A stretch of 64,000 nt of DNA from a virus. This document shows positions 2 through 46,471 of the stretch, piece by piece. The DNA lies in IMG/VR virus record IMGVR_UViG_3300039159_000275, positions 1-64,000 of that record. One strand, 5' to 3'. Positions within the stretch are counted from its first letter, which is position 1. The number at the start of each line of letters is the position of its first letter. Made by a program: the position numbers and the translations under genes. Under the pieces are notes generated by a model that worked only from the letters and a program-made list of their open reading frames with translations, ran no database searches and was not told the DNA's origin.

Positions 2-595
2 TTAAATAAGGATAAAGACGCAAAATATACTTTAAACACAGATAACAGTATTGATGTTGAAGGAAATATTAATTTATCACATTTAAAGTTAACAGAAATG
101 CCAGTTAAATTTGGTAAAATTAATGGATATTTTAGTTGTTTTAATAATAACTTAACATCATTAAAACATTGTCCAACTACTGTATCAGGAGATTTTTATT
201 GTTCATTTAATAAATTAACATCATTAGATGGTTGTCCAAGTATTGTAACAGGAGATTTTCGTTGTCATGATAATAAATTAACATCATTAAAAGGTGGTCC
301 TATTACAGTATCAGGAAATTTTAGATGTTCTAATAATCTTTTAACATCTTTAGAACATGGTCCAACTACTGTATCAGGAGATTTTTATTGTTATATAAAT
401 CAATTAACATCTTTAAAACATGGTCCAACTACTGTAACAGGAAATTTTAATTTTGCTAATAATGAATTTCCTGAAAACATTCAAAAAAAGATTGATAATT
501 TTGAAGGTACTTGGCAAGAATTGTTATTTTTAATGAATATTTGGCAATCTAAAAAACTAAGTCGTTTAGATAATAAAACTGGATTATTTAACTAA
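2..595 (+). CDS. LRR-family protein, 5'-truncated by window edge (copy A)
   Basis: The frame is open from base 2, so the gene begins upstream and the internal ATG at 98 is not its start. The visible 197 residues hold the end of the N-terminal domain (TLNTDNSIDVEGN), five 21-residue repeats of the form N-x-L-T-S-L-x-x-x-P-x-x-V-x-G-x-F-x-C, and the C-terminal cap (FPENIQKKIDNF, then GTWQELLFLMNIW, ending KTGLFN). The repeat resembles the short bacterial LRRs of the YopM/IpaH type. That is a fold prediction, not a function. Only six bases separate it from the next paralogue, so it is the first visible member of a six-copy tandem array. The leader peptide seen in the other copies lies outside the window. 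Confidence 0.85.
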   Translation, partial: LNKDKDAKYTLNTDNSIDVEGNINLSHLKLTEMPVKFGKINGYFSCFNNNLTSLKHCPTTVSGDFYCSFNKLTSLDGCPSIVTGDFRCHDNKLTSLKGGPITVSGNFRCSNNLLTSLEHGPTTVSGDFYCYINQLTSLKHGPTTVTGNFNFANNEFPENIQKKIDNFEGTWQELLFLMNIWQSKKLSRLDNKTGLFN

Positions 596-601
596 ATAAA
601 T

Positions 602-1330
602 ATGAAGCATTTAAAAACATATCAAATCTTTGAAAAAGCAAATGCAACAGATCCTATTGAAATTATTAAAAGTTTAAATAGAGATAAAACCACAATTTAT
701 ACTTTAAACAAAGATAACAGAATTGATGTTGAAGGAAATGTTGATTTATCATATTCAAATTTAACAAAATTACCAGTTAAATTTGGTAAAGTAACAGGTA
801 ATTTTTATTGTGATAATAATAAATTAACATCTTTAGAACATGCTCCTATTACAGTATCAGGAGATTTTTATTGTTCATTTAATAAATTAACATCTTTAGA
901 ACATTGTCCAACAACTGTATCAGGAGATTTTAATTGTTATGATAATCAATTAACATCTTTAGAACATGCTCCAACAACTGTATTTGGAGATTGTATTTGT
1001 TCTAATAATCTTTTAACATCTTTAGAAAATGCTCCAACAGCTGTAACAGGACATTTTAATTGTTCTAATAATCTATTAACATCTTTAGAACATTGTCCAA
1101 CTACTATAGTAGGAGATTTTAAATGTTATGATAATTTTTTGACAACATTAAAAGGTGGCCCAACTACTGTAACAGGAAATTTTTATTGTTTTAATAATAA
1201 ATTTCCTGAAGATGTTCAGGAAAAGATTGATAATTTTAAAGGTACTTGGCAAGAATTAATGGTGTTAAATGCTATTTGGCAATCTAAAAAACTAACCGAT
1301 TTAGATAATAAAACTGGATTATTTAACTAA
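602..1330 (+). CDS. LRR-family protein with T4 internal-protein-like leader (copy B)
   Basis: 242 residues. The leader is MKHLKTYQIFEKAN, followed by a ~45-residue capping domain (DPIEIIKSLN to LPVKFGKVTG), six 21-residue repeats, and the conserved 42-residue C-terminal cap ending KTGLFN. The start is fixed by alignment with the other copies. The leader resembles the capsid-targeting sequence of T4 internal proteins (MKTYQEFIAE, from memory), and I-F-E fits the L/I-x-E rule of the T4 prohead protease, but here the next residue is K rather than the usual small residue. Repeat four (GDCICSNN) is slightly divergent. It is separated from copy C by one base, so the array is probably co-transcribed. 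The biochemical function is unknown. Confidence 0.87.
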   Translation: MKHLKTYQIFEKANATDPIEIIKSLNRDKTTIYTLNKDNRIDVEGNVDLSYSNLTKLPVKFGKVTGNFYCDNNKLTSLEHAPITVSGDFYCSFNKLTSLEHCPTTVSGDFNCYDNQLTSLEHAPTTVFGDCICSNNLLTSLENAPTAVTGHFNCSNNLLTSLEHCPTTIVGDFKCYDNFLTTLKGGPTTVTGNFYCFNNKFPEDVQEKIDNFKGTWQELMVLNAIWQSKKLTDLDNKTGLFN

Positions 1331-1331
1331 A

Positions 1332-2060
1332 ATGAAGCATTTATCAACATACCAAATCTTTGAAAAAGCAAATGTAACTGATCCTATTCAAATTATTAAA
1401 AATTTAAATATTAATAAATACGCAAAATATACTTTAAACACAGATAACAGTATTGATGTTGAAGGAAATATTAATTTATCACATTTAAGGTTAAAAAAAA
1501 TGCCAGTTAAATTTGGTAAAGTAACAGGTAATTTTTATTGTTTTAATAATAACTTAACATCATTAAAACATTGTCCAATTACAGTATCAGGTAATTTTTA
1601 TTGTTCATATAATCTATTAACATCTTTAGAACATGGTCCAACAACTGTAACAGGAAATTTTAGATGTTCTAATAATCTTTTAACATCTTTAGAACATTGT
1701 CCAATTACAGTATCAGGAGATTTTTATTGTTATAGAAATCAATTAACATCTTTAGAACATTGTCCAATTACAGTAAAAAGAAATTTTGATTGTTCTAATA
1801 ATCTTTTAACATCTTTAAAACATGGTCCAACTAATGTATTAGGAAGTTTTGATTGTTCTAATAATCAATTAACATCTTTAAAACATTGTCCAACTACTGT
1901 AACAGGTAATTTTCGTTTGTTTTGTAATGAATTTCCTGAAAACATTCAGGAAAAGATTGATAATTTTAAAGGTACTTGGCAAGAATTGTTATTTTTAATA
2001 AATATTTGGCAGTCTAAAAAACTAACCGATTTAGATAAAAAAACTGGATTATTTAACTAA
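1332..2060 (+). CDS. LRR-family protein with leader (copy C)
   Basis: 242 residues with the leader MKHLSTYQIFEKAN, the capping domain (residues about 13-60, ending MPVKFGKVTG), six repeats and the C-terminal cap (GTWQELLFLINIW, KTGLFN). Several repeats carry V-K-R-N-F in place of V-S-G-x-F, a variant also seen in copies E, G and I. This suggests repeat units have been exchanged between copies. The start directly follows the stop of copy B (one base between). Highly AT-rich coding with repeated codons is shared with all copies. The role is unknown; the leader suggests a packaged internal head protein (inference). Confidence 0.87.
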   Translation: MKHLSTYQIFEKANVTDPIQIIKNLNINKYAKYTLNTDNSIDVEGNINLSHLRLKKMPVKFGKVTGNFYCFNNNLTSLKHCPITVSGNFYCSYNLLTSLEHGPTTVTGNFRCSNNLLTSLEHCPITVSGDFYCYRNQLTSLEHCPITVKRNFDCSNNLLTSLKHGPTNVLGSFDCSNNQLTSLKHCPTTVTGNFRLFCNEFPENIQEKIDNFKGTWQELLFLINIWQSKKLTDLDKKTGLFN

Positions 2061-2066
2061 ATAAAT

Positions 2067-2984
2067 ATGAAGCATTTAAAAACATATCAAATCTTTGAAA
2101 AAGCAAACGCAACTAATCCTATTGTAATTATTACAAAATTGAATAGGAATAAAGACGCAAAATATACTTTAAACAAAGATAACAGTATTGATGTTGAAGG
2201 AGATGTTGTCATATCATCTTTAAAGTTAACAGAAATGCCAGTTAAATTTGGTAAAGTATCAGGAGATTTTAATTGTTTTAATAATAAATTAACATCTTTA
2301 GAAAATGCTCCTATTACAGTATTAGGTAATTTTTATTGTTCTAATAATTTTTTAACATCTTTAGAAGGTTGTCCAACTACTATATTAGCAGATTTTAAAT
2401 GTTCTAATAATCAATTAACATCTTTAAAACATTGTCCAACTACAATAAATGGACAGTTTAGTTGTTATAGAAATCAATTAACATCTTTAAAACATGGTCC
2501 AATTACAGTATCAGGAGATTTTTATTGTTATAGAAATGAATTAACATCTTTAGAACATTGTCCAACTACAATAAATGGACAGTTTAGTTGTTATATAAAT
2601 CAATTAACATCTTTAGAACATTGTCCTATTACAGTATCAGGAGATTTTAATTGTTATAGAAATCATTTAACATCATTAGAACATTGTCCAACTACTATAG
2701 TAGGAGATTTTGATTGTGCTCATAACGACTTAACATCTTTAGAACATGGTCCAAAAACTGTAGCAGGAGATTTTGATTGTTCTAATAATCTTTTAACATC
2801 ATTAGATGGTTGTCCAAAAACTGTATCAGGACGGTTTAATTTTGCTATTAATAAATTTCCTGAAGATATTCAAAAAAATATTGATAATTTTGAAGGTACT
2901 TGGCAAGAATTGTTATTTTTAATGAATATTTGGCAATCTAAAAAACTAACCGATTTAGATAATAAAACTGGATTATTTAATTAA
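2067..2984 (+). CDS. LRR-family protein with leader, nine repeats (copy D)
   Basis: 305 residues, exactly 63 (three 21-residue units) longer than copies B and C, with nine LTSL repeats between the same N-terminal domain and C-terminal cap. The leader is MKHLKTYQIFEKANATNP. Two repeats carry the variant I-N-G-Q-F-S-C, indicating duplication of pairs of units. One repeat reads DCAHNDLTSL. The length difference in whole units shows that the family grows and shrinks by recombination between 63-bp repeats. Function unknown, with predicted curved beta-solenoid fold (inference from the LRR-like spacing of L, N, P, G and F). Confidence 0.87.
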   Translation: MKHLKTYQIFEKANATNPIVIITKLNRNKDAKYTLNKDNSIDVEGDVVISSLKLTEMPVKFGKVSGDFNCFNNKLTSLENAPITVLGNFYCSNNFLTSLEGCPTTILADFKCSNNQLTSLKHCPTTINGQFSCYRNQLTSLKHGPITVSGDFYCYRNELTSLEHCPTTINGQFSCYINQLTSLEHCPITVSGDFNCYRNHLTSLEHCPTTIVGDFDCAHNDLTSLEHGPKTVAGDFDCSNNLLTSLDGCPKTVSGRFNFAINKFPEDIQKNIDNFEGTWQELLFLMNIWQSKKLTDLDNKTGLFN

Positions 2985-2987
2985 AAT

Positions 2988-3035
2988 ATGAATTATTTAA
3001 AAACATATCAAGTCTTTGAAACAAAAAATAACTGA
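2988..3035 (+). pseudogene. Orphan leader remnant of an LRR-family gene
   Basis: ATG at 2988 starts MNYLKTYQVFETKNN and then hits TGA at 3033-3035. This is the family leader cut off after 15 codons. A second, intact leader starts at 3043 inside the next gene. It is best read as the scar of a deletion or unequal crossover between two gene starts, although a translated 15-residue leader peptide cannot be excluded. Confidence 0.6.
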
Positions 3036-3042
3036 TAATCCT

Positions 3043-3831
3043 ATGAATTATTTAAAAACATATCAGATTTTTGAAGCAAATGTAACTAATCCTATTGAAA
3101 TTATTACAAAATTGAATAGGAATAAAAAAGTAAAATATACTTTAAACACAGATAACAGTATTGATGTTGAAGGAGATGTTGACATATCACATTTAAGGTT
3201 AAAAGAAATGCCAGTTAAATTTGGTAAAGTAACAGGATATTTTTATTGTTCTGATAATAAATTAACATCTTTAGAACATTGTCCAAGTATTGTATCAGGA
3301 GATTTTGATTGTTATAGAAATCATTTAACATCTTTAGAACATTGTCCAACTACTGTAAAAAGAAATTTTGATTGTTCTATTAATAAATTAACATCTTTAA
3401 TACATGGTCCAACTAATGTATTAGGAAGTTTTGATTGTTCTAATAATCTTTTAACATCTTTAGAAGGTTGTCCAATTACAGTATTAGAAGATTTTTATTG
3501 TTCTTTTAATCAATTAACATCATTAGAACATTGTCCAACTAAAATATCAGGAAATTTTCTTTGTTCTGATAATAAATTAACATCATTAGAACATTGTCCA
3601 ACTACAATAAATGGAGATTTTTATTGTGAAAATAATCTTTTAACATCATTAGAACATTGTCCAATTACAGTAAAAAGAGATTTTGATTTATCTAATAATG
3701 AATTTCCTGAAAACATTCAAGAAAAGATTGATAATTTTAAAGGTACTTGGCGAGAATTAATGGCGTTAAATGCTATTTGGCAGTCTAAAAAACTAAACAA
3801 TTTAGATAATAAAACAGGATTATTTAATTAA
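3043..3831 (+). CDS. LRR-family protein with leader, seven repeats (copy E)
   Basis: I place the start at ATG 3043 (MNYLKTYQIFEANV), which matches the family leader. An in-frame TTG at 3016 would add nine residues that have no counterpart in other copies. 262 residues: leader, capping domain (ITKLNRNKKVKYTLN to MPVKFGKVTG), seven repeats, and the C-terminal cap with one change (GTWRELMALNAIW). Here the putative protease site is I-F-E followed by A, an exact fit to the T4 gp21 rule. Downstream, 22 bases containing TATATAG separate it from the truncated copy F. Confidence 0.86.
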   Translation: MNYLKTYQIFEANVTNPIEIITKLNRNKKVKYTLNTDNSIDVEGDVDISHLRLKEMPVKFGKVTGYFYCSDNKLTSLEHCPSIVSGDFDCYRNHLTSLEHCPTTVKRNFDCSINKLTSLIHGPTNVLGSFDCSNNLLTSLEGCPITVLEDFYCSFNQLTSLEHCPTKISGNFLCSDNKLTSLEHCPTTINGDFYCENNLLTSLEHCPITVKRDFDLSNNEFPENIQEKIDNFKGTWRELMALNAIWQSKKLNNLDNKTGLFN

Positions 3832-3853
3832 TATATAGAAAAAATAACTAATG

Positions 3854-4138
3854 ATGAATTATTTAAAAACATATCAGATTTTTGAAGCAAAGACGCAACA
3901 TGCTCCTATTACAGTATCAGGAAATTTTGATTGTTCATATAATAAATTAACATTATTAGATGGTTGTCCAATTACAGTATTAGGAAATTTTAATTGTTCT
4001 AATAATGACTTAACATCTTTAGAACATGGTCCAACAACTGTAACAGGACATTTTTATTTTGATAATAATAAATTTCCTGTTATGTGGCAGTCTAAAAAAC
4101 TAACTAACATAAATAATAAAACTGGATTATTTAACTAA
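3854..4138 (+). CDS. LRR-family protein, internally deleted short copy (copy F)
   Basis: 94 residues from MNYLKTYQIFEAKT (an ATG immediately upstream at 3851 is an alternative). The leader joins directly to HAPITVSG, so the capping domain is missing. Only two repeats remain, and the C-terminal cap is shortened to FPVMWQSKKL before the conserved KTGLFN. The junctions look like two internal deletions that nevertheless kept both ends in frame. The retained leader and tail suggest the ends are what matters, or that the event is recent. It may be a decaying copy. Confidence 0.7.
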   Translation: MNYLKTYQIFEAKTQHAPITVSGNFDCSYNKLTLLDGCPITVLGNFNCSNNDLTSLEHGPTTVTGHFYFDNNKFPVMWQSKKLTNINNKTGLFN

Positions 4139-5998: not shown

Positions 5999-6634
5999 TT
6001 ATTTCAATTTTAATAATATTCCATTATTTAAATATTTATGTTCTTCAATTTTTTCAAAATCATCAAAAACATCATTAATTAAATTATCATAATTATGAGA
6101 GTTTAAATTTTCAATTAAAAAAATATATTTATTTGATAATTTCTTCATGTTTTTTAAAAATTTATTAGCTCTATCATATGACAAATGCATCGTAACAGCT
6201 TGTGTGTAAACAAATTCATATTTATTAATCATATCTTTTTCAATTGTTCCATCTACCATATCTAAAATTTTTAATCTATTGCTAAATTCATAATCTTTTA
6301 AATTAAATAATTTAAAACCCAAATTTAATTGATTTTGTGAATAATCGCATCCATCGACATATAAATTTGGATTAATGATTTGATTATTTATTAAATGATG
6401 TGCACAACCAAAACCACATTCAAAAATAGAATTGACCTTTAATTTTTGTATTATATGATACAATTCTTTCCAATTTTGATGTAAATTATCTTTAAAAATA
6501 ATTTCTCCATTTATATCATATTCTATATTTTTTACAATTAAATCTATAGATTTTTCAATAAATTCGTTGTTTAATTCTTTTAAATAATAATCGTTAGTAT
6601 AATTTTCCCAGTTAAAATCATCTTTTATTTTCAT
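5999..6634 (-). CDS. Class I SAM-dependent methyltransferase
   Basis: 211 residues. SAM-binding motif I is seen as FECGFGCAHHL around residues 72-82, followed by an acidic residue at the end of the second strand (VDGCDYS), as in Rossmann-type methyltransferases. Motif IV region is EFVYTQAVTMHL. This fold transfers a methyl group from SAM; the acceptor cannot be read from the sequence. It is the last gene of the leftward glycan operon, 12 bases after the GDP-mannose dehydratase, so a sugar or a glycan is a plausible acceptor (inference). Confidence 0.75.
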   Translation of the reverse strand: MKIKDDFNWENYTNDYYLKELNNEFIEKSIDLIVKNIEYDINGEIIFKDNLHQNWKELYHIIQKLKVNSIFECGFGCAHHLINNQIINPNLYVDGCDYSQNQLNLGFKLFNLKDYEFSNRLKILDMVDGTIEKDMINKYEFVYTQAVTMHLSYDRANKFLKNMKKLSNKYIFLIENLNSHNYDNLINDVFDDFEKIEEHKYLNNGILLKLK

Positions 6635-6646
6635 GTTTTTTAATTT

Positions 6647-7615
6647 TTAATTTTTCTCTAAACAATACATTAGCATTTCATCTAACATCGTTTCAAATGT
6701 ATATTCTTGTTCCCATGACAGAATTTTTTTTATTTTTGAAGCATCACCTTTTAAAAAATGTAATTCTTCTGGTCTCAAAAATTTCTCATCTTTTTTTACA
6801 TATTTTTTCCAATCTAAATCCAGTTTACCAAAAACATATTCAACTAATTGTTTTACAGTGTGCGATACTCCTGTTGCACATATAAAATCATCTGGTTTGT
6901 TATGTTGTAACATTAACCACATTGCTTTAGTGTAATCCTTAGCATGACCCCAATCTCTAGATGCATTTAAGTTTCCAAGTTTTAATTCGTTTTGTTTTCC
7001 GTTTTTAATGTTAACTGCAGCGTGAATTACTTTATTTGTTACAAAATTCATGCCTCTTCTCGGTGATTCGTGATTAAATAGTCTAGCACATGAAACAAAC
7101 ATATTGTAACTGTTTTTATAATTTTGACATATATTATGTGCAAAAACTTTAGAAACTCCATATGGAGATACTGGAATCATTGGAGTAGTTTCTCTCTGAT
7201 AACCATCATCATCAATATTATTTCCAAATTGTTCAGATGATCCAGCATTGTACATTTTGGAATTTGGAACAATAGATTTCATTGCTTCAAGAACATTTAG
7301 TGTTCCTATAGAATTTGCAAATGCTGTATATACAGGTTGGTCAAAAGATATTCTAACATCAGATAAAGCGGCTAAATGATATATTTCCGAAGGTTCATAT
7401 TTTTGCATTACTTTAATAAGTGAAGACATATCTGTAACATCACAATATTCTAAAAAAATTTTATCCTTAATATGTTCAATTCTGTAATTTGAATTTGGAG
7501 CACTATTTCTTTTTAATGTTCCAATCACATTATATCCTTTAAAAAGCAAAAATTCTGAAAGATAACTTCCATCTTGTCCGGCAATTCCAGTAATTAAAGC
7601 TGTTTTATTATTCAT
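6647..7615 (-). CDS. gmd: GDP-mannose 4,6-dehydratase
   Basis: Extended short-chain dehydrogenase of 322 residues. It shows the NADP-binding TGIAGQDGSYLSEFLL (residues 9-24), which is the GMD signature; the catalytic S-S-E at 126-128 in AGSSEQFG; Y152 and K156 in SPYGVSK; and the family block NASRDWGHAKDY. The enzyme converts GDP-D-mannose to GDP-4-keto-6-deoxy-D-mannose, precursor of GDP-fucose, GDP-colitose and GDP-perosamine. It is somewhat shorter than the usual ~345-370 residues. It sits directly downstream of ColD-like and GMER/ColC-like genes (16-17-base gaps), which points to the colitose branch. Cytoplasmic. Confidence 0.93.
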   Translation of the reverse strand: MNNKTALITGIAGQDGSYLSEFLLFKGYNVIGTLKRNSAPNSNYRIEHIKDKIFLEYCDVTDMSSLIKVMQKYEPSEIYHLAALSDVRISFDQPVYTAFANSIGTLNVLEAMKSIVPNSKMYNAGSSEQFGNNIDDDGYQRETTPMIPVSPYGVSKVFAHNICQNYKNSYNMFVSCARLFNHESPRRGMNFVTNKVIHAAVNIKNGKQNELKLGNLNASRDWGHAKDYTKAMWLMLQHNKPDDFICATGVSHTVKQLVEYVFGKLDLDWKKYVKKDEKFLRPEELHFLKGDASKIKKILSWEQEYTFETMLDEMLMYCLEKN

Positions 7616-7631
7616 TGATTTATCATTATTT

Positions 7632-8789
7632 TTAAAATTTATTAATAATATCGCATATTTTAATGATGTTATCAGTGGTTAAATCTTGATGATTTGGAAT
7701 ATAAAAACCGTATTTATCTATTTTTTCGCAATTTTCCAATTTGGTTTCTATTTTATTTTTAAAATTTTTCCAAAAGGGTTTATTAGACATGTTTCCAGCT
7801 ATTAACGGCCTTACTTCTATATTATTTTCTTTTAAAGATTTTACTATTTCTGATCTGTTTTTGTGTACAATGGGATATGCAAAATTTGAAATAAAACCTC
7901 TTTCTATTAATTTTAATTCGTTATTTTTAATATTTTCTTTATATATGTTATAATTAGCATTTCTAATTTTTTTAAAAATATCTAATTTATCTATTTGACT
8001 AATACCAATAAATGCTTGTAAATCGGTTGATCTTAAATTAAATCCAGGATAGTAAAATTGATATAATGCTGAAAATTCATCAACATTGTGTTTTTTTCTC
8101 CATAATAATTGTGTTTCAGAATCAATGTCTCTGTCCCAACCATGAGAACGACACGATAATAAAACATCATATATTTCTTTATCATTCGTGTTTATAAAAC
8201 CTCCTTCTATAGTTGATAAATGATGACCATAATACATTGAGAAAAAAGACATTATACCAAAACTTCCTAATTTTTTAGAATTAAATTCAGATCCCATACT
8301 TTCACAAACATCTTCAATTAATAGAACGTCATATTGTTTACAAAGATTAACAATTTTTTCCATATCTGGTACTAGACCTAAAACACTAACTAATATAACT
8401 GCTTTGGGTTTGTATTGTAAAAAACTTTTTTCTAACTCTTCTAAATTTAATGATAAATCAGACATATTACAATCTATCAAAATTGGATTTAATCCAATTT
8501 GCATAGGAGAAGAAACATCTGTCAACCATGAAAGAGCTGGTACAATTATATTATCACCAACAGATAATTTATTCATCTGTATTAAAGTAAAAAGACCTAA
8601 TAATATAGCTGAACTACCAGAATTTACATACACAGAATAATTTGTATGTATGTAATTGGCCCATTTTTTTTCTAATTGTACTGTTACTTCACCCTTTGTT
8701 AGTCGAGGAATAGGGTCTTGTTGTAACCATTCTATTAATCTATTAATGTCGTTTCTATCTATTGTATCACTTACTAATTTAATATTCAT
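7632..8789 (-). CDS. colD: ColD-like GDP-4-keto-6-deoxymannose 3-dehydratase
   Basis: PLP enzyme of the DegT/DnrJ/EryC1/StrS fold. In the segment FFSMYYGHHLSTIEGG a histidine (about residue 189 from the chosen start) replaces the PLP-binding lysine. This replacement marks the 3-dehydratases ColD and RfbH rather than aminotransferases. Other ColD-like blocks are EDVCESMGS, CRSHGWDR, PGFNLRSTDLQAFIG, IEVRPLIAGN and GFYIPNHQ. The reaction would remove the C3 hydroxyl of GDP-4-keto-6-deoxymannose. I start at ATG 8789 (MNIKLVSDTIDRND), five bases after the upstream stop; an ATG at 8834 would overlap that gene by 41 bases. RfbH-type specificity is the alternative, but adjacent gmd favours ColD. Confidence 0.85.
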   Translation of the reverse strand: MNIKLVSDTIDRNDINRLIEWLQQDPIPRLTKGEVTVQLEKKWANYIHTNYSVYVNSGSSAILLGLFTLIQMNKLSVGDNIIVPALSWLTDVSSPMQIGLNPILIDCNMSDLSLNLEELEKSFLQYKPKAVILVSVLGLVPDMEKIVNLCKQYDVLLIEDVCESMGSEFNSKKLGSFGIMSFFSMYYGHHLSTIEGGFINTNDKEIYDVLLSCRSHGWDRDIDSETQLLWRKKHNVDEFSALYQFYYPGFNLRSTDLQAFIGISQIDKLDIFKKIRNANYNIYKENIKNNELKLIERGFISNFAYPIVHKNRSEIVKSLKENNIEVRPLIAGNMSNKPFWKNFKNKIETKLENCEKIDKYGFYIPNHQDLTTDNIIKICDIINKF

Positions 8790-8793
8790 ATGT

Positions 8794-9696
8794 TTATTTG
8801 TATGTTTTGTAATATTTTCTAATTCCTTCTTCAAGATTCATAAATGAATAATTTGGAATTATTTGATTAAATTTTTCAATACTTAAATCTTTTCGCATTT
8901 GACCATTTGGTTTTGTTTCATCATAATCGATTCTCAAATGTAATGAATCAGTTGCTTTTAACGCAATATTTGCTATTTGCGAAATTGTTAAATTTTCGGG
9001 TGTTGCAACATTAAAAGATTCTGTAATGTCTTCTTCAATTACTCTTTTAATGATTTTAGCAAGATCAGATGCATGCATAAATTGACGCATTGGTTTTCCA
9101 TTACCATATAGTGTTATATGATCTTCTTTGTTTAAGTTAGCTAAATAAATCTTCTTAACAAGAGCAGTTACAAAATGAGATTTGTTTTCATCATCTTTAT
9201 CTTCATTACCATATAAATTACAAGGTGAAATATAATTATACTTAGTACCATATTCTTTATTACATGCATCAATTTGAACTGCCATGGCACGCTTCGCCAT
9301 CCCATATGAAAAATTAGTTTTAGTTGGTGCACCTCTATGTAAATCTTGTTCAAGCATTGGATATGTTTCAACTACATCTGGAAAAATACAAGATGAAAGA
9401 ATACCAATAAATTTTTTAACATGAAATTTGCGAGCATTACGAATCATAAAAGTATTCATTAAAATATTTTCTTCAAAATATTCAGAAGGGTGATTAATAT
9501 TATCAAAAATTCCACCGACTCTAGCTGCCAAATGTACAACACAATCAGGTTGATAATATTCATACATTTCTTTAACTTTATCTTGTATTGTTAAATCATA
9601 ATCTTTAGAAGACATATAATGTGCGCTTGGTAATATTTTTTGTAAATATTTACCACATAAACCTGAACCACCGGTTACTAAAATTTTATCATACAT
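8794..9696 (-). CDS. GDP-sugar 5-epimerase/4-reductase (ColC or GDP-fucose synthase type)
   Basis: 300 residues, extended SDR. NADP motif TGGSGLCG at residues 8-15; S101, S102 and C103 in LSSCIFP; Y131 and K135 in SYGMAK; and H174 in KSHFVTAL. These match the catalytic Ser, Cys, Tyr, Lys and His of GDP-L-fucose synthase (GMER). ColC, which makes GDP-L-colitose, belongs to the same family and cannot be separated from Fcl by motif. It is the first of three consecutive genes with colD and gmd, so a GDP-L-colitose route is the most economical reading. Alternatively it makes GDP-L-fucose from the gmd product. Upstream 158 bases (9697-9854) are non-coding. Confidence 0.85.
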   Translation of the reverse strand: MYDKILVTGGSGLCGKYLQKILPSAHYMSSKDYDLTIQDKVKEMYEYYQPDCVVHLAARVGGIFDNINHPSEYFEENILMNTFMIRNARKFHVKKFIGILSSCIFPDVVETYPMLEQDLHRGAPTKTNFSYGMAKRAMAVQIDACNKEYGTKYNYISPCNLYGNEDKDDENKSHFVTALVKKIYLANLNKEDHITLYGNGKPMRQFMHASDLAKIIKRVIEEDITESFNVATPENLTISQIANIALKATDSLHLRIDYDETKPNGQMRKDLSIEKFNQIIPNYSFMNLEEGIRKYYKTYK

Positions 9697-9854
9697 AATT
9701 TTATTTAAAATGTTTTGAAATAGTCGAAATTTTTCTCATCTTTGAAAAATTCCAATACTTGTTTAACATATATACGAAATTGTTTCTTATATTTATAATG
9801 CGTGTCAAAGTCCGTCGTTTTTGGCCATCATGACTTTTTTACTATATTTTTGTG

Positions 9855-10922
9855 TTATTTTAATAAAGATACATTGCGAAGTTCTTGTAATGATCTTTGA
9901 TAAGAATCATCAATTTTTAAATCTAAAGAAGTTATCCAATTAACATAATCTATTAAACCTGTTTCTAAAGAAACTTTTGGTACAAAATTTAACTCATTCT
10001 TAATTTTTGTAATGTCTGCAACGTTATGTTTAATATCTCCTTTACGTACTTCATTATTTATTTTAATTTTAGAAGTTGAAGAATATAAATTTCTTAATAG
10101 CTCTGCTAAATTTAAAATCTCTGTGCTAGTACCTGAACCAACATTATAAGTTTGAGAATTAGCAACAGGTTGCATTGCTAAAATTAATGAATCAACAACA
10201 TCTGAAACATGTATAAAATCTCTTGTCATTTTGCCGTCTTCAAAAATAAAAACATCTTTTTGAAATAAAAATTGTTTTGAAAAAATTGATAATATACCAG
10301 TATAAGGATTATTCAAACTTTGATATCGACCATACACATTTTGAAAACGTAAAATAGTGTAATCAATTTTATCTGTTAATAAAATTTTAAAAAGATACTC
10401 TTGATATAATTTATTTGCAGCATAAATTGATAATGGAGATACTTTATCCGTTTCAAGTGATGGTACTATTTTCCCATTTACAATATTAGCATCGCCATAA
10501 ACTGCTCGACTGGACGCTAAGATAATTTTATCAGGTGCTAATGTTGGATGTTTTAAATAAAAATTTAAAACATCTGCAGTACCATCAATATTTGTGTTGT
10601 GATATTTAGACAATTCATACATTGATTGACCTGTACCAGTTTCTGCAGCTAAATGATAAATAATATCAAATTTAAATCTTTCTTTCCACAATGTTATTCG
10701 ATCCTGATTGTAATTTATAACATCCGTTTTAAGAAATTTAAGAGGATATTTGGAATTTATAAATGAATTTAAAAATTGATATGAATATGAACTTAAAACA
10801 TTTGTACCATGAATTTGTGGATTTAAATTATCAATAACCCAAACTTCATGATTTTGTTCTAACAATTTCTTTACAAGATTAACTCCAATAAAACCTGCGC
10901 CGCCGGTTATTAAAATTTTCAT
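9855..10922 (-). CDS. NAD-dependent nucleotide-sugar epimerase/dehydratase
   Basis: 355-residue extended SDR with TGGAGFIG at residues 7-14, active-site SSRAVYGD, and Y-A-A-N-K as the YxxxK motif. The block AAETGTGQSMYELSKY is close to the ETGxGQSMYE signature I associate with dTDP-L-rhamnose 4-epimerases (Tll/WbiB type). The exact substrate is inference; UDP-glucose 4-epimerase is the alternative. Its start overlaps the stop of the upstream methyltransferase (10919-10922). It would supply a second activated sugar for the local glycosyltransferases. Cytoplasmic. Confidence 0.85.
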   Translation of the reverse strand: MKILITGGAGFIGVNLVKKLLEQNHEVWVIDNLNPQIHGTNVLSSYSYQFLNSFINSKYPLKFLKTDVINYNQDRITLWKERFKFDIIYHLAAETGTGQSMYELSKYHNTNIDGTADVLNFYLKHPTLAPDKIILASSRAVYGDANIVNGKIVPSLETDKVSPLSIYAANKLYQEYLFKILLTDKIDYTILRFQNVYGRYQSLNNPYTGILSIFSKQFLFQKDVFIFEDGKMTRDFIHVSDVVDSLILAMQPVANSQTYNVGSGTSTEILNLAELLRNLYSSTSKIKINNEVRKGDIKHNVADITKIKNELNFVPKVSLETGLIDYVNWITSLDLKIDDSYQRSLQELRNVSLLK

Positions 10923-11614
10923 TTCTTTACAAAGTACGCTAATTTATTTGGACCATATATTGTTTCAGGTAATGTAAACATTTCAGCGTGTGTAATGTTG
11001 TCTGTTAAATATTGATTCTCATCAGCTGTTAAAAACTCAGATGATGATATTTGTGTATCAACAATACGTTGTAAAAAATCATAAGTAGTGTTAGTGCGTT
11101 TTTCATTAATATCTAAAGTTGTTCCATATAAATCTTTAAAATCATTAATTGGCCAAAAAGAAGTATGTAAATCTTCAACCCAATATTGACCATTAGATTT
11201 TAAAAATGAAAACAATGTGCCAAAACTTACTTGTTGTTGTTGCATCATATGACCACCATCATCAATGATAATATCAAAAGCAGTATTTGCTTTTTCAAGA
11301 AACTGTTGTAAGCTTTCCCTACTAGATTGATCGGCAATATATGTTGTTACTTTATCATTATTCAAATATGTATAATTTTCAATATCAATAGCGTGGATTG
11401 TTGCATTTGGAAAATAATCATACCACATTTTTAAAGACGGTCCACCACCAATACCAATTTCTAAAAATGTAATTGCTTGATTTCTAATTGCTTCAAATGT
11501 TTTTTCATATTGTGTTGTGAAATGTAAACGGGGACCATGATGTTTACCATCTTGAGGAATTTCAGTACCTTTATCTGAAGCATATTTATTTGCAAGTTGT
11601 GTTAAAGTCATCAT
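10919..11614 (-). CDS. SAM-dependent O-methyltransferase, MycE/TylE-like family
   Basis: 231 residues. The N-terminal block LANKYASDKGTE with a later HFTTQYEKTF is typical of sugar O-methyltransferases of the macrolide (MycE-like) family and related polysaccharide enzymes. Motif I is FLEIGIGGGPSLKMW; the likely metal site includes IDDGGH, and there is a later VEDLHTS. It probably methylates a sugar hydroxyl. It overlaps both neighbours by four bases (10919-10922 and 11611-11614), so it is tightly coupled within the leftward operon. Two consecutive Met codons begin the ORF. Confidence 0.8.
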   Translation of the reverse strand: MMTLTQLANKYASDKGTEIPQDGKHHGPRLHFTTQYEKTFEAIRNQAITFLEIGIGGGPSLKMWYDYFPNATIHAIDIENYTYLNNDKVTTYIADQSSRESLQQFLEKANTAFDIIIDDGGHMMQQQQVSFGTLFSFLKSNGQYWVEDLHTSFWPINDFKDLYGTTLDINEKRTNTTYDFLQRIVDTQISSSEFLTADENQYLTDNITHAEMFTLPETIYGPNKLAYFVKK

Positions 11615-12306
11615 ACGTATTTATATTTTATATTTTGATCAATTTTGTAATTGTATTTATTCAAACAATAATCAATTTCTTTTTTTCTTAATTCTGTTGT
11701 TGCAAGCGTATTTGTTACACTATTAGGCCACATTCTGATACTAACATAAGTATTATCTGAAATTGAAACAGGTTCACCATATTTATGAAATAACGTGTAA
11801 GCTATTTCGCAATCATTCATCCAAATTAAATTATCATCGAAAAAATTATTATCATTTTTAAAAAACATAACTGAAGGAGCACCTATTGTGTTTTTCGCAG
11901 TAATAATTTCATCAGCATAAGAAGGTGTCATGTTTCTATAAAAAGAAGTACCCATTTGATCTGTATGATTAAAATTAAAAAAACCCCAATCCATTTTTAT
12001 TTTTTCTAAAGCATGTTCATTATAAAAGAAATCATCTTGATGCATTATTTTAATATATTCACCTTTTGCGTGTAAAATTGCATTATTCATATTGTTAGAT
12101 GAATTACCAATCTTTTCAAGATTACGATAATATTTAATATTACTATTTTTACAAACATTGAAGATTATATCTGATTTAGAATGATCTGATATAATAATTT
12201 CATAATCTTTTTCTGATTGATTGTTAATTGTGTTCAAAAGAACTTTTAAATATTTGTCACCAACACCATTCATTTCATAAGTTGGAATACATATTGAAGT
12301 TTTCAT
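11611..12306 (-). CDS. Family 2 glycosyltransferase
   Basis: 231 residues of GT-A fold. The N-terminus SICIPTYEMNG is the strand-turn that binds the nucleotide sugar; IIISDHSKSD follows; and the metal-binding DxD-like motif is HQDDFF near residue 94. The family uses activated sugars to extend glycans with inversion. It lacks a membrane segment, so it acts in the cytoplasm or at the inner membrane face. It overlaps the GT10 gene upstream by 32 bases and the methyltransferase by four. Donor and acceptor unknown. Confidence 0.83.
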   Translation of the reverse strand: MKTSICIPTYEMNGVGDKYLKVLLNTINNQSEKDYEIIISDHSKSDIIFNVCKNSNIKYYRNLEKIGNSSNNMNNAILHAKGEYIKIMHQDDFFYNEHALEKIKMDWGFFNFNHTDQMGTSFYRNMTPSYADEIITAKNTIGAPSVMFFKNDNNFFDDNLIWMNDCEIAYTLFHKYGEPVSISDNTYVSIRMWPNSVTNTLATTELRKKEIDYCLNKYNYKIDQNIKYKYV

Positions 12307-13087
12307 TAGTTATTTCTAATATTTTTTCTTTTAAACGTTTATTATAATCCATATAATATAACGCAGTTTGATAATTTTCTTCAATTGCAACAATTCGATT
12401 ATTATAGTCAAATTCCGTCAATTTGTTTACTTTATCAAAACATTCTTCTATAGTATTAAAACAAATTATACCATCAATATTAAAATAATTTGAAATATTT
12501 TCACATCCCCAATAAATAGGTATAGTTTTAGTTAAAAAACAATCTATTATTTTTTCAGTAAACCAATTTTTAATATTTACATTTTCAACACATATATGAA
12601 ACATTGAATCATTAAAAAGTATAATTTTATCATTTGGTAAATTTCCAATATACTTTTTATATTGATTTGGTATAGGTAAATTAGAACTATTATAAAATTC
12701 AGTTTTAATTTTAAAAAGATTTTCTGAATGCCAAATTTTTGATCTTAATATGTGACCATTTGTTTTTGATTTAGAGTTACATAACATTGTAACTTTTAGT
12801 TTTTTTTCTATAGAATTTGGATTAACAAATGAAGATCCAAATTCAAATAACACACTATTATTACATTTAGATAAAATATTTTCTGACCATGTTAAAATAA
12901 AATCATAATATTTATGATTTTCATAAACTTTTTCAAATTGTAAACCTATTTCAGGAGGTTCAATTATTAATAATATTTTAATACCATCAAAATGTGGTAA
13001 ATGATAACTGTCAATAACAAGTAATGTTGGTTTTAAAACATTAAATAGAGGTAAATGTACAGTGTTATTAATTATATTAATGTTCAT
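12275..13087 (-). CDS. Family 10 (alpha-1,3-fucosyltransferase-like) glycosyltransferase
   Basis: The conserved GT10 core is clear: FHICVENVNI, then FTEKIIDCFLTKTIPIYWG and NISNYFN. This matches the F-x-I-x-x-E-N plus T-E-K-I-x-D-x-F-x-x-x-x-I-P-I-Y-W-G signature of alpha-1,3/4-fucosyltransferases. These enzymes use GDP-L-fucose; colitose is 3-deoxy-L-fucose, so GDP-colitose is a chemically plausible donor here. Start at ATG 13087 overlaps the upstream GT11 stop as ATGA; the ATG at 13099 is less likely. The N-terminal half (acceptor domain) is divergent, as usual for the family. Confidence 0.85.
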   Translation of the reverse strand: MNINIINNTVHLPLFNVLKPTLLVIDSYHLPHFDGIKILLIIEPPEIGLQFEKVYENHKYYDFILTWSENILSKCNNSVLFEFGSSFVNPNSIEKKLKVTMLCNSKSKTNGHILRSKIWHSENLFKIKTEFYNSSNLPIPNQYKKYIGNLPNDKIILFNDSMFHICVENVNIKNWFTEKIIDCFLTKTIPIYWGCENISNYFNIDGIICFNTIEECFDKVNKLTEFDYNNRIVAIEENYQTALYYMDYNKRLKEKILEITNENFNMYSNL

Positions 13088-13863
13088 ATTATAATCCAAT
13101 TATCGCAATAAATATCTTTGGTTTCTAAGTGATTTAAATTAGGACCAAACCATTTTTTCGGAGCTATTATTTTTTTGTTTTCAGATTCAGATAACCAAGC
13201 ACCCCACCAAGAAAAAGTTGAATTTGAAATAATAAAATTTTTCATTTTTGACATTAAATAAATTTCACAATAATCTTTTTCTTCAATAAATTCAAATTTA
13301 CCTTTAATAAAGTTTTGCTTACACCATTCTATATCGGAAGAAAAAACAACATACTTATTATTAAAATCAAAATAAGACATTGCATTGTTAAAATAATCCA
13401 TGTCCATAACAACATGATTATTTTGATCATTTAAATAATCTCCTCTTCTAACATGAATAACTGTTCTATTATACAAATGAGAATATTTTTTATCTAATTC
13501 TGTCCTAATATTTAATGGTAAGTCAAAAAGATTTAAAATATCTTTTCGATATTTTTTAAAATATTTTTCAGATTGAAAATAACCGATATATTGAGCATCT
13601 TTAATATATTCTATATTTTGAAATCCCCACTCTATATTTTTTATAGAGTGAAGTGTTATATCAGATTTTTTAAATTTATCAAAAAATATTGAAAATTCTC
13701 TAGCATGAGAAACATCCCATCTTTTATCTGATAATAATTCATTATATCTTTTTTCTATATTTAATAAAACTAATTCATCAACATTTTGAGTTGCTAATGC
13801 ATACATACTTGCTATTTGAAAAAGCATATTTCCAAGACCTCCAATTGGATATAGATATATCAT
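13084..13863 (-). CDS. Family 11 (alpha-1,2-fucosyltransferase-like) glycosyltransferase
   Basis: 259 residues carrying the GT11 motifs: GGLGNMLFQIASMYALA at the N-terminus, HVRRGDYL (the GDP-fucose-binding HxRRGDY), SNSTFSWWGAWL, and APKKWFGP. These enzymes transfer L-fucose from GDP-fucose; some members transfer colitose in bacterial O antigens. This is the first gene of the leftward block, with its start at 13863 facing the rightward block. The promoter should lie in 13864-14200. Cytoplasmic, with no membrane segment. Confidence 0.9.
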   Translation of the reverse strand: MIYLYPIGGLGNMLFQIASMYALATQNVDELVLLNIEKRYNELLSDKRWDVSHAREFSIFFDKFKKSDITLHSIKNIEWGFQNIEYIKDAQYIGYFQSEKYFKKYRKDILNLFDLPLNIRTELDKKYSHLYNRTVIHVRRGDYLNDQNNHVVMDMDYFNNAMSYFDFNNKYVVFSSDIEWCKQNFIKGKFEFIEEKDYCEIYLMSKMKNFIISNSTFSWWGAWLSESENKKIIAPKKWFGPNLNHLETKDIYCDNWIII

Positions 13864-13964
13864 TTTTTATTTATAAAATAATATACATTTCTATAATTTT
13901 TTATATAATTTTTAATATTTTAGCTCATATAATATGGGAAAAAGCTCCTATTTCAAATACTAAA

Positions 13965-14153
13965 ATGATTGATATATCAAATGTTACAAACTCAGATGAA
14001 TTATCTAAATTAGAACGAAGAATTTCATATAATGATGTTGCTTGTTATTTTGGAAAAGGGAGATTTAAAAATTTTAAATTAAATCCTCCTTATCATAATT
14101 TAAGTATGTATTTTGGTAATGGAGCTGGTAATATTACGATATTTGAATATTAA
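13965..14153 (+). CDS. Possible small protein, 62 aa
   Basis: The frame is open from inside the antisense of the GT11 gene through to 14153. A start at ATG 13965 gives MIDISNVTNSDELSKLERR and a C-terminal half rich in G, N, F and Y (YFGKGRFKNF, MYFGNGAGNI). Upstream in the same frame, 13864-13964 would encode a very hydrophobic Ile/Phe/Tyr stretch, so a longer membrane-anchored form using a non-ATG start is possible. No homologue recognised. This is the only content seen in the 337-base gap between the two glycan blocks other than promoters. Confidence 0.4.
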   Translation: MIDISNVTNSDELSKLERRISYNDVACYFGKGRFKNFKLNPPYHNLSMYFGNGAGNITIFEY

Positions 14154-14200
14154 TTTTTTATATCTTTTATAAGAGAAAGGTTTCTTAAATAAATATTATC

Positions 14201-15277
14201 ATGAACATTTTTCATAATACAAACGTAATTCTAGTATATGGCAATTCTGGCAACGGTAAAACAACTACAGCTATAAAAATAAAAGATTTAGATCAATATA
14301 ATAAAGTTATTCATACTGATGGGATTTTTCTATATGAAAATTCACCGCAGCTTATAGATCTATATTTTAAATCAAATCAAGATGTTAGTTGTGCTGCTAG
14401 ATCAGAGGAATTTTTATATTATAAACATATTTACATTTTTGCTATTATACAGGAAATAGAACAAATATTAAAATCAACATCTTATGTTTCAAATATTATA
14501 ATCGAAGGATATGCATTAATGTTTTGTTTAAAAGAAATAACAGATTTTTTTAATAAAAGAGATTTAAGAATATATTTATTAGAAATGATAAATTTTAATA
14601 TTTTCATAGATCAAAAAGAAATTACATTTAATGAATTTCAAAATGTTTTATACAGTAAAGAAGTATTAAACAAATCAAATTATCAAAGTTTTGATTTTTT
14701 AAATGATATTGTAAAAGACAGTTCATCTTTAAATAAATTTATTTTGTCTGGTTTAGATAAAATAAATCTAAATGATAAAGTATTAGTAGATTTTGGTTGT
14801 AATTGTGGATATTTTTTATTTAAATTGAAGGATAAAAACTGTAAATTGATTGGTGTTGATGTATCTAAAGATGTATTAAAAATAGCATATGATATAAATA
14901 GAAGCTTTATAAAAACTGATAATATTACATTGTATAATATGTCATGTTTTGATTTTACAGAAAAAGTAAATGTTGTTTTTGCTGCTTCAATGTTTCATTA
15001 TCTGATTGATCAACAACAACAATTTATTGATCATTGTTATAATATATTAAACATTAATGGTATTCTATTATTAGAAATAGAAGAACACACTGATAATGAG
15101 AATATTAACACATTTAAAATAGCTAGAAGAGATGGTGAATCTTGTTTAAATTATCCAAACGAAAAAAAAATTCATCAAATGATTCATCGAAAGTTTTATG
15201 TTAAAAGCAAAACCATTTCTTCACATCAATCCGGAAGTTTTTTTAATAGATATTTTTACCATTTAATAAAATTATAA
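14201..15277 (+). CDS. P-loop kinase fused to class I methyltransferase
   Basis: 358 residues in two parts. Residues 1-~170 begin with a Walker A motif GNSGNGKT (14-21), then HTDGIFLYE and an acidic patch before NIIIEGYALMF, resembling small-molecule or nucleotide kinases of the AAA_33/zeta type. Residues ~190-358 form a SAM-dependent methyltransferase with VDFGCNCGYFLFKL (motif I), LIGVDVSKDVL and the motif IV region VVFAASMFHYL. Phosphorylation plus methylation in one chain recalls the O-antigen chain terminator WbdD, although that enzyme has another kinase fold and domain order. A role in capping a phage-made glycan is inference. Confidence 0.75.
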   Translation: MNIFHNTNVILVYGNSGNGKTTTAIKIKDLDQYNKVIHTDGIFLYENSPQLIDLYFKSNQDVSCAARSEEFLYYKHIYIFAIIQEIEQILKSTSYVSNIIIEGYALMFCLKEITDFFNKRDLRIYLLEMINFNIFIDQKEITFNEFQNVLYSKEVLNKSNYQSFDFLNDIVKDSSSLNKFILSGLDKINLNDKVLVDFGCNCGYFLFKLKDKNCKLIGVDVSKDVLKIAYDINRSFIKTDNITLYNMSCFDFTEKVNVVFAASMFHYLIDQQQQFIDHCYNILNINGILLLEIEEHTDNENINTFKIARRDGESCLNYPNEKKIHQMIHRKFYVKSKTISSHQSGSFFNRYFYHLIKL

Positions 15278-15291
15278 AACAATAATAATTA

Positions 15292-15942
15292 ATGTTACTA
15301 AAAGAATATTTTGATCATATTTACTGTATAAATTTAGACAGAAGACCGGATAAATGGAAAAACTGTTTACTTGAATTTGAAAAACACGATATAGTAGTAG
15401 AACGAATTACTGCTATTGATGGAAATCCAAATAATGAAATAAAAAACGAAATAAAAGAACCATATGTTTATAAACCTGGAATAATAGGTTGTGCATTATC
15501 ACATTTAAAAATAGTTAAAGATGCATTAGAAAATAATTATAAAAATATTTTAATATTAGAAGATGATATAGTATTTGAAGAAGAAGTTAATTATAAATTT
15601 TCGGAATATATCAATAAAATACCATTAGATTGGCAACTTTTATATTTTGGCGGAAATCATTTAGGAGAACATTTTACTGAAATAAATGATAATGTTTTTA
15701 AAATAACTAACACATATACAACACATTGTATTGGTATGAAAAATGAATTTTTTAAAAAATTCATTGCTCGTGTGGAATTATCAATCGATTATCCAATTGA
15801 TGTTATATATGCAGAGTTACAAAAATCAAATTCTGCATATTGCTTTAAACCACATTTAGCATGGCAAAGAAAAGGTTTTTCTGATATTGATAATGCATAT
15901 GTTGATTATGATATAATTATAAAAGAATTTAAAGCTAATTAA
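15292..15942 (+). CDS. Family 25 glycosyltransferase
   Basis: 216 residues. Family features are YCINLDRRPDKWKN at the N-terminus, GCALSHLKIVKDAL, and the metal-binding ILEDDIVFEE. This is the arrangement of LPS galactosyltransferases LgtB/LpsA and of procollagen galactosyltransferases. It transfers a hexose, often galactose, to a glycan. It lies 14 bases after the kinase/methyltransferase and five bases before the next glycosyltransferase, in the rightward glycan operon. Confidence 0.88.
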   Translation: MLLKEYFDHIYCINLDRRPDKWKNCLLEFEKHDIVVERITAIDGNPNNEIKNEIKEPYVYKPGIIGCALSHLKIVKDALENNYKNILILEDDIVFEEEVNYKFSEYINKIPLDWQLLYFGGNHLGEHFTEINDNVFKITNTYTTHCIGMKNEFFKKFIARVELSIDYPIDVIYAELQKSNSAYCFKPHLAWQRKGFSDIDNAYVDYDIIIKEFKAN

Positions 15943-15947
15943 AAAAT

Positions 15948-16772
15948 ATGTATTATTTACAAACAATATTTGCACCCAATAATAACCAATTAAATAGAAA
16001 TATTGCATCAATTAAAAGTCTTGATGCATATTTGAAAAAATATCCATATCCAGTTATTTTAATATGTGGTGGTTGGTGTGAATCCGAAGAATATTGGGAT
16101 AAAATCATTACATGTTTAAATGAAACAACAAGCTTTAAAAGTCATTATTTTAAATTTAATGAAAATAAAGGAAAATCCTTTACAATTAATTTTTTGTTTG
16201 ATAATTTTTTAAAATCAAGTTCTGAAAAATATTTTTTAACTGCTGATTCAGACATATGTTTTGATTTAAATGTTTATAATTTTTTTGAACGATTAGAAGA
16301 AGCTCCTAAACATATAGAAAGAATAACAAATAAATCTTTTGGTATGATAGCATTAAATCAAACACAAATGAGCTGTCATGTTTATGAAAATTTAAAAATA
16401 AATCATGAGTACAGCAATTCATTTAATGAAGAAGAAATAATCATTTCTTCTTCTAATACATCAGGTATAGCAGGTGGTTGCTTATACACATCAACTGCTG
16501 CTTGGAAAAAAATAAACGGATATAGATTAATTCACATTTATGGTGGAGACGATGGCTATTATGCATATGACAATTATGTAAATAACTTTAGTTGTGATGT
16601 ATTATTAACATTGTCAATTATACATCCTTTTGATACAGATAAAGATTATCAACAATGGAAAAGCGATCAAATTAAAATGATTCAAAATGCTGGTGGACAT
16701 AATAGATTAGTTGATGAATATTTAAAAAGTAATATAATTTCAACTGATTTTTGGAAAAATAAACCTAAATAA
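15948..16772 (+). CDS. GT-A fold glycosyltransferase
   Basis: 274 residues. The segment FLTADSDICFD provides a D-x-D-like nucleotide-sugar site around residue 100, followed later by GIAGGCLYTSTAAWKK and the acidic IYGGDDGYYAY motif common in GT2-like and chondroitin-type transferases. It has no transmembrane segment. Substrate unknown. A 37-base gap separates it from the next gene. The N-terminus (MYYLQTIFAPNNNQLNRN) is not the classic GT2 PTYN motif, so the assignment is to fold rather than family. Confidence 0.7.
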   Translation: MYYLQTIFAPNNNQLNRNIASIKSLDAYLKKYPYPVILICGGWCESEEYWDKIITCLNETTSFKSHYFKFNENKGKSFTINFLFDNFLKSSSEKYFLTADSDICFDLNVYNFFERLEEAPKHIERITNKSFGMIALNQTQMSCHVYENLKINHEYSNSFNEEEIIISSSNTSGIAGGCLYTSTAAWKKINGYRLIHIYGGDDGYYAYDNYVNNFSCDVLLTLSIIHPFDTDKDYQQWKSDQIKMIQNAGGHNRLVDEYLKSNIISTDFWKNKPK

Positions 16773-16809
16773 TAATTTTACAAAGACTATAAAAACAAAT
16801 AGATAATTG

Positions 16810-18879: not shown

Positions 18880-18887
18880 AAAATATT

Positions 18888-20464: not shown

Positions 20465-20487
20465 TTTTTTAATCTCACTTTCATAAT

Positions 20488-20495
20488 TATATTTG
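20488..20495 (+). promoter_or_regulatory. Candidate Bacteroidota-type -7 element TATATTTG
   Basis: TATATTTG fits the TAnnTTTG -7 consensus of Bacteroidota and lies 69 bases before the small ORF at 20565. No convincing -33 TTTG is seen at the usual distance, so confidence is low. The same ATTAnnTTTGT context recurs at 25784, 25874 and 44009. Confidence 0.3.
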
Positions 20496-20564
20496 TTTAA
20501 AAATTAATTTATGATATACAAGTTAATACGATTATAATTGTTCTTTAAATAAACACTAAACTTA

Positions 20565-20665
20565 ATGGCAAAAACAGAAAAACAAAACTTTTCGGAAGTG
20601 ACTACACAAGACCTAAAAAAGGTGCACCAAAAGTAAGACCAGCACATCAACAACCAAAGAAGTAA
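20565..20665 (+). pseudogene. Frameshifted small basic protein
   Basis: ATG 20565 opens MAKTEKQNF and ends in frame at 20636. A second frame, entered near the A-rich stretch about 20571-20588, reads KLFGSDYTRPKKGAPKV and then RPAHQQPKK to a stop at 20663-20665. That second reading is basic and protein-like, whereas the first is not. A single-base indel (mutation, sequencing error in an A run, or recoding) would join them into a ~33-residue basic peptide. Function unknown. Confidence 0.35.
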
Positions 20666-23917: not shown

Positions 23918-23937
23918 GATACAGAAATTAATCAATA

Positions 23938-46422: not shown

Positions 46423-46471
46423 TAATCTTTATTAATTTTTATTATATATAAGATTATGCATTATATCATTT

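Follow-up and report, generated by a model that had tools for sequence, protein, structure and literature searches.

We examined a short N-terminal leader, carried by a family of leucine-rich repeat (LRR) proteins encoded in a 64,000-nucleotide stretch of viral DNA (hereafter the window, bases 1-64000 of the 68,388-base IMG/VR virus record IMGVR_UViG_3300039159_000275), that probably acts as a T4-type tag for targeting proteins to the phage head and processing them there. Megaphages of one clade would use it at very large scale, with the LRR proteins as variable-binder cargo. The first-pass annotation of this DNA had described the leader as a feature of the LRR family. It is real in that family, but the same leader proved to be a genome-wide tag, so the claim was too narrow, and interest shifts from the LRR family to the tag itself.

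The window encodes a T4-like gp32 (Pfam gp32, 4e-17) that is nearest to those of LR756504, LR745206, LR756502, LR756501, and LR756500 (35-46% identity), all uncultured megaphages of 460-735 kb. Our main comparison set consisted of the four complete related megaphages LR756504, LR756501, LR756502, and LR745206, which are named in this order below. Al-Shayeb et al. grouped those of their own genomes that exceed 634 kb as the 'Mahaphage' clade and predicted Bacteroidetes hosts (PMC7162821); the clade of leader-using megaphages probably infects Bacteroidota.

The start of the LRR proteins was first seen on many other open reading frames (ORFs) in a scan of two related complete genomes. It has the form M-K-x-L/I-K-x-[F/Y], followed by a second aromatic residue and/or E; a first, broad aromatic pattern was dropped because it was too loose to tell leaders from background. 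The strict pattern stood at 33, 5, 76, and 54 ORF starts in the four megaphages, and the chance level, taken from interior methionines, was 0.3-2.1 per genome. For the three genomes that carry the strict form this amounts to 33-76 ORF starts versus 0.4-2.1 expected. A leader profile built from three megaphages gave 50, 32, 126, and 108 matches, with a background of 1-5 matches among 2,100-3,100 interior peptides per genome, and the profile together with a T4-like spacing motif selected 66, 82, 139, and 124 ORFs (7-14%). One profile match, on SbcC of LR756504, was rejected as a false positive (11.4 bits, native N-terminus).

The proteins behind the leader are diverse. The 314 profile-detected proteins that were long enough to compare formed 259 BLAST clusters, and in 110 unrelated leader proteins the alignment was limited to MKxLKxYxxFxxE. 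Few proteins with T4 homologues carry the leader. Domains found among the cargo include glutamyl-tRNA synthetase (GluRS), CTP_transf_like, Radical_SAM, RNA ligase, phage lysozyme, methyltransferase, and peptidoglycan-binding domains, and the first three begin behind the leader at residues 24, 20, and 22, respectively. In the second leader-bearing protein that we modelled, residues 1-9 had a predicted local distance difference test score (pLDDT) below 50 and the body was mostly confident. We also considered one cargo family, A3, as an ADP-ribosyltransferase (ART); most of its top PDB matches were ART or ART-like folds (MbcT, PltA, an anti-CRISPR protein, and ParT), but with E values of 0.02-0.4 this assignment is no more than a hint. 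A leader-tagged family has YHGNRKGDFPP after the leader (L164:1001-1582; relatives on L187, L194, L195, L199, L200, L203, L205, L210, L222, and L232), and its predicted fold is weakly like ADP-ribosyltransferases and an anti-CRISPR protein.

A DNA form of the leader matched at least 117 stretches in IMG/VR, including contigs of 150-480 kb, and a scrambled version of the pattern matched 0. Reading 85 of the matches gave 36 different clusters, and one tagged protein has an ADP-ribosyltransferase domain. The same DNA pattern had 4 matches in 84,980 bacterial and archaeal genomes (257 Gb). The leader is thus frequent in viral contigs and nearly absent from bacterial genomes. It was not found in fENko-Kae01 and PA5oct, jumbo phages with related proteases and with mass spectrometry notes in their records; as these phages have no leader, those notes neither support nor refute packaging.

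In T4, the first ten residues of internal protein III (IPIII), MKTYQEFIAE, suffice for packing, and mutations show that targeting depends mainly on Y4 and F7 and processing on I8 and E10 (PMC9026906). When megaphage genes were picked solely by leader residues 1-5, position 7 was F or Y in 78% and position 10 in 51%, which is the spacing of Y4 and F7 in IPIII. A site of the form [ILVMFY]xE[SAGN] lay within residues 6-24 of 55% of these leaders, and in 6-9% of equal stretches further down the same proteins. LR756501 has leaders nearly identical to that of T4, for example MDKYNNFINEAV. We then scored the N-terminal peptides of 262 T4 ORFs with the megaphage profile; ipIII came third and ipII fifth. 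Near the N-terminus, [FY]xx[FY][ILV]xE occurs in T4 in ipII, ipIII, and 61.1 only, and gp23 has it at its known cleavage site, FLTE↓A (arrow, bond of cutting). The propeptide of gp23 is 65 residues long (PMC9026906). As a separate observation, the product of T4 gene 61.1 (18966-19130; L152) starts MKTFKEFIKED and is the best T4 match of the megaphage profile, above ipIII and ipII; judged by its sequence, gp61.1 is possibly an unrecognised internal protein.

The head genes of the megaphages carry the same motif. In all four genomes an ORF of approximately 700-810 amino acids (aa) lies between the portal and capsid genes (Table 1). The one tested matched head maturation protease phrog_207 (6e-28), all four align with T4 gp21, and the capsid protein matches phrog_138; a gp21-family protease thus stands beside the portal and capsid genes in four relatives. 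The C-terminal 450-550 residues of the protease ORF include a series of tandem repeats such as IAYSEYIAENLDKN, and the 14-residue repeat, YSEYIAENLDKN, has the motif YSEYIAEN. Among ORFs of at least 300 aa, the protease has the highest density of [ILV]xE[SAGN] in each of the four genomes, with 12-17 sites in its tail versus 1.7-1.9 expected by length and 3.7-4.5 expected by E content. Most of 80 IMG/VR relatives have about 11 tail repeats, and the capsid site INEN was present in 62 matches. This site, INE↓N, lies at the end of the N-terminal arm of the capsid protein. One motif recurs in variant forms, as YSEYIAEN in the repeat, as YAEFHQINE↓N at the capsid site, in the leaders, and as YQEFIAE↓A in the T4 leader, and from its sequence the protease ORF looks like a protease and a scaffold in one polypeptide.

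These results bear on the proposal of the first-pass annotation that the leader matches that of the T4 internal proteins and follows an I-x-E↓A cleavage rule. Independent tests agree with it, namely the modularity of the tag, the aromatic spacing, the ability of a profile made from megaphages only to pick up ipII and ipIII, the T4-like protease of the relatives, and the shared motif in protease-tail repeats and capsid site. Like T4 IPI, IPII, and IPIII (with Alt), the megaphages have a short N-terminal leader of aromatic-xx-aromatic plus I/L-x-E on unrelated bodies; the relatives also share with T4 a protease gene between the portal and capsid genes and, recalling Alt, an ADP-ribosyltransferase among the leader cargo. 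The differences are that dozens to more than 100 megaphage ORFs are tagged, compared with three internal proteins in T4, that the megaphage leader is about 3 residues longer and has [FY]x[IL]FE↓S as one of its main types instead of FIAE↓A, that the protease has a tail of tandem leader-like repeats, and that the cargo includes LRR, GluRS, radical-SAM, and other proteins.

The tag would bind the prohead core, perhaps by replacing one repeat of the protease-scaffold tail; in the simplest reading, the leader would imitate one core-forming repeat unit and be cut at the same bond. The protease would cut after E, and the freed proteins would remain in the head and be ejected with the DNA. Comparison makes the head-injection reading of the leader well supported, and it is from this comparison that we infer packaging, cutting, and injection. 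A broader version, in which the T4 leader has become a general cargo system, the repeat array of the protease forms the core, one N-terminal unit loads the product of any gene, and 7-14% of ORF products, among them enzymes, an ADP-ribosyltransferase, and hypervariable LRR binders, are delivered as protein at infection, seems to us evenly balanced between right and wrong. It had also been suggested that this would be an undescribed phage effector system. A targeting leader on internal proteins was described for T4 and proposed for T4-like phages generally; the novelty lies in the scale, in the cargo, and in the tandem-repeat tail of the protease.

The LRR family itself comprises 10 paralogues, A-J, at three sites of the window (Table 1). 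The span 2-4138, originally given for the family, holds copies A-F, and G-J sit elsewhere. All ten were said to share MKHL-x-TYQIFE; the leader is visible in nine, the N-terminus of A being hidden by the record start. Copies B-D and G-I begin with MKHL and copy J with MRHL, whereas MNYL opens copies E and F and the second I leader. Y7 and F10, three residues apart, are present in every LRR leader of the window. IFE is followed by either A or K: A in copies E-H and J and in the second I leader, exactly as first read, and K in copies B-D and in the first I leader. With A, the sequence IFE↓A is I/L-x-E plus a small residue, like the protease site of the T4 type. A leader without a body between D and E is the trace of a further duplication or loss. 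The record also has one or two leaders on non-LRR proteins (Table 1). One of these, the small basic protein at 63922, resembled ribosomal protein S21. This identity was rejected, as the record gave no match to the S21 model and the S21 frames in the four relatives are just 64-70 aa and leave no room for a long extension. A small ORF at window 46168-46428 (-) that starts MIKRFNNFSEGKDE has a weak leader score of 11.7 bits.

Behind the leader, the LRR body consists of an N-cap, 1-9 full 21-residue repeats, and a 40-residue helical end. Both copy number and repeat number differ among the paralogues, and no two of the 49 repeat units are identical. The structure prediction proposed at the outset was run on copy H. 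AlphaFold returned an LRR solenoid (pLDDT 84) in which residues 1-14 were below 50 and the rest mostly confident, so that the leader lies outside the fold, as it does in the other model. The top PDB matches of this model were bacterial-type LRR domains, IpaH, SspH1, and YopM (Foldseek E 6e-4 to approximately 0.03). The predicted solenoid is of their type; the window proteins differ in having 21-residue repeats with a C and N ladder, in being phage-borne, and in the head-type leader. Pfam gave no IpaH ligase domain in the window LRR proteins, whose C-terminus is the short helical end, and the matches to DUF4893 and LRR_4 were rejected for being under their cut-offs.

We estimated the ratio of nonsynonymous to synonymous substitutions (dN/dS) by pairwise counts, which use non-independent pairs and paralogous repeats and give a direction, with no formal test; the values were 0.21 for the leader, 0.18 for LRR core positions, 1.3 for the N-cap, and 3.0 at the exposed LRR positions 16, 18, 19, and 21. 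The leader in the LRR family is under purifying selection, and its value of 0.21 means that the peptide itself is conserved, beyond the DNA alone. As one cargo of the system, the family would be made of tandem-duplicated bacterial-type solenoids with fast-changing exposed residues. From their fold and diversifying change alone, we infer that they may act on host proteins, and they would most likely bind a shifting range of proteins in the cell just infected, such as those of defence, much as T4 IPI binds a restriction enzyme. The same repeat type occurs in LRR proteins from Vibrio phage SRILMA, from Lak phages, and from IMG/VR contig L003, those of SRILMA and L003 differing in having no leader. 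SRILMA, L003, and LR745206 have the domain without a leader, and LR756501 and LR756502 have it behind one, a pattern that fits a detachable tag.

Several observations weigh against a head-packaged cargo system marked by this leader. Among the selected ORFs, 7-12 motif-only leaders per genome are expected to be false positives, and many leaders elsewhere, of the YNES and FE types, lack I, L, or V at P3. In the window, P1' is K in 4 of 10 leaders, where cleavage is uncertain. The T4 scores of the megaphage profile are weak (6-10 bits), with ipI outside the top matches. The 68-kb record of the window has no head genes, so the protease of this phage is not directly seen; PF03420 had no match on the record, which is uninformative for the same reason. 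TATAAATA-like late promoters were not enriched before leader genes in the four genomes. Leaderless LRR domains exist, and for some LRR uses the leader is therefore dispensable. Tagging of 13% of genes would mean more than 100 packaged species, versus about 50 head proteins reported for SPN3US. Finally, we found no virion proteomics for any leader-bearing phage, and no cultured relative that carries the leader.

Some of these points would suit a leader that is a tag of another kind, for cell location, protein quality or assembly, or expression, on LRR proteins that are made anew and bind host or rival-phage proteins. Up to 14% of genes are tagged, including infection-useful metabolic enzymes such as GluRS, and a link to late promoters was not seen. 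We nevertheless consider a non-head tag unlikely, as it leaves the protease-tail motif, the capsid site, and the match to T4 ipII and ipIII unexplained. Somewhat more doubtful still is the idea that the leader targets the prohead core and the LRR proteins stay there as internal head or core components, their variability coming from assembly partners or from drift after duplication. The leader evidence speaks to head targeting and is silent on injection, and T4 core proteins are mostly cut up and removed (PMC9026906). However, a dN/dS of about 3 at exposed positions and 49 distinct units out of 49 are unexpected with a fixed structural partner, and the paralogues vary in copy number and repeat number. 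It is improbable that the LRR proteins serve as adhesins on the surface or tail, varying so as to bind host receptors. LRR adhesins occur in bacteria, and copies G-J adjoin the tail sheath and other large tail-like genes; in T4, however, this type of leader is a head-core signal, no fibre domain was found in the LRR proteins, and copies A-F sit beside unrelated genes. Chance in an AT-rich genome, where at 21-30% G+C in the window codons for K, I, N, Y, and F are common, or plain shared descent of paralogues, is refuted by the interior and scrambled controls, the unrelated cargo in four other genomes, and the absence of the leader from other phages.

A T4-type head tag also invites comparison with the giant phages phiKZ and SPN3US, which have many internal head proteins, some of them cut by the prohead protease after E and ejected (PMC5694885, PMC7411985). 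The likeness of these ejection (inner body) proteins lies in being part of giant phages with many internal head proteins. They differ in the cleavage motif, A-x-E in SPN3US and S-x-E in phiKZ; the site-like motif of the leaders is neither of these but I/L-x-E. Moreover, their propeptides are mostly long, with no common short leader described, and the relatives of the window have T4-like head genes and a fused protease-repeat protein.

With dozens to more than 100 tagged proteins, these phages may bring a large protein cargo along with their DNA. For most megaphage genes no role is known. A tag that can be read from sequence would flag several dozen to more than 100 likely head-cargo proteins per megaphage genome and predict what these phages carry into the cell ahead of any phage gene expression. 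What T4 does with three internal proteins would extend to a sizeable share of the genome, with mimicry of the protease-tail repeat as the proposed means of cargo recognition. The claim about the LRR family becomes specific and testable, predicting variable binders, freed from their leader, inside heads, and the leaders could be natural loading tags for phage-based protein delivery.

Table 1. Leader-bearing proteins of the window, proteins of LR756501 with leader-like extensions, and head protease ORFs of the four megaphages. An arrow marks the predicted cut after E.
Feature	Source	Position	Strand	Remarks
LRR copy A	window	2-595	+	5' end beyond record start, N-terminus missing
LRR copy B	window	602-1330	+	leader 602-634, MKHLKTYQIFE, next residue K
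LRR copy C	window	1332-2060	+	leader 1332-1364, MKHLSTYQIFE, next residue K
LRR copy D	window	2067-2984	+	leader 2067-2099, MKHLKTYQIFE, next residue K
Leader remnant without body	window	2988-3035	+	MNYLKTYQVFETKNN, then stop; between D and E
LRR copy E	window	3043-3831	+	leader 3043-3075, MNYLKTYQIFE↓A
LRR copy F, short	window	3854-4138	+	leader 3854-3886, MNYLKTYQIFE↓A
LRR copy G	window	33931-34908	+	leader 33931-33963, MKHLSTYQIFE↓A; immediately after tail sheath gene
LRR copy H	window	34915-35580	+	leader 34915-34947, MKHLSTYQIFE↓A; modelled copy
LRR copy I	window	38656-39318	-	two serial leaders, 39286-39318 (E then K) and 39232-39264 (E↓A)
LRR copy J	window	39320-39862	-	leader 39830-39862, MRHLSTYQIFE↓A
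Non-LRR protein, related leader	window	62253-62765	-	MKNLKRFEAFN; 18.7 bits in leader profile
Small basic protein, possible further leader	window	63922-64000	+	starts MKHLKCFKDVANEN; runs on to 64152 of record
Glutamyl-tRNA synthetase	LR756501	L056:13276-14892	+	leader-like N-terminal extension of ~20 residues
CoaD-like nucleotidyltransferase	LR756501	L080:4325-4771	-	leader-like extension of ~20 residues
Radical-SAM protein	LR756501	L059:707-1237	-	leader-like extension of ~20 residues
Head protease and repeat tail	LR756504	185342-187651	-	tandem 14-residue repeats
Head protease and repeat tail	LR756501	73901-76336		tandem 14-residue repeats
Head protease and repeat tail	LR756502	225272-227371		tandem 14-residue repeats
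Head protease and repeat tail	LR745206	198486-200669		tandem 14-residue repeats

Among the other genes of the window are those for a contractile tail sheath protein (phrog_34521, 6e-67) and a primase-like protein. Two giant proteins of 3868 and 969 aa (47276-61819) are encoded after the tail genes and have G/W-rich repeats, GxWxxGxWxxG, to which the larger adds GTSGTSG/GTAGTAG tracts. By eye, we noted sugar-nucleotide and glycosyltransferase-like genes clustered at 6000-24000, some on each strand, with methyltransferase-like and aminotransferase-like genes, as well as an Hsp70/DnaK-like protein (27105-28949) and an NAD-type DNA ligase-like protein (20783-22642). A contig closely related to the window (L002:1851-7123) appears, also by eye, to encode a PorP/SprF-like protein as well as a large repeat protein whose C-terminus is of the gliding type, which would suit a Bacteroidota host.

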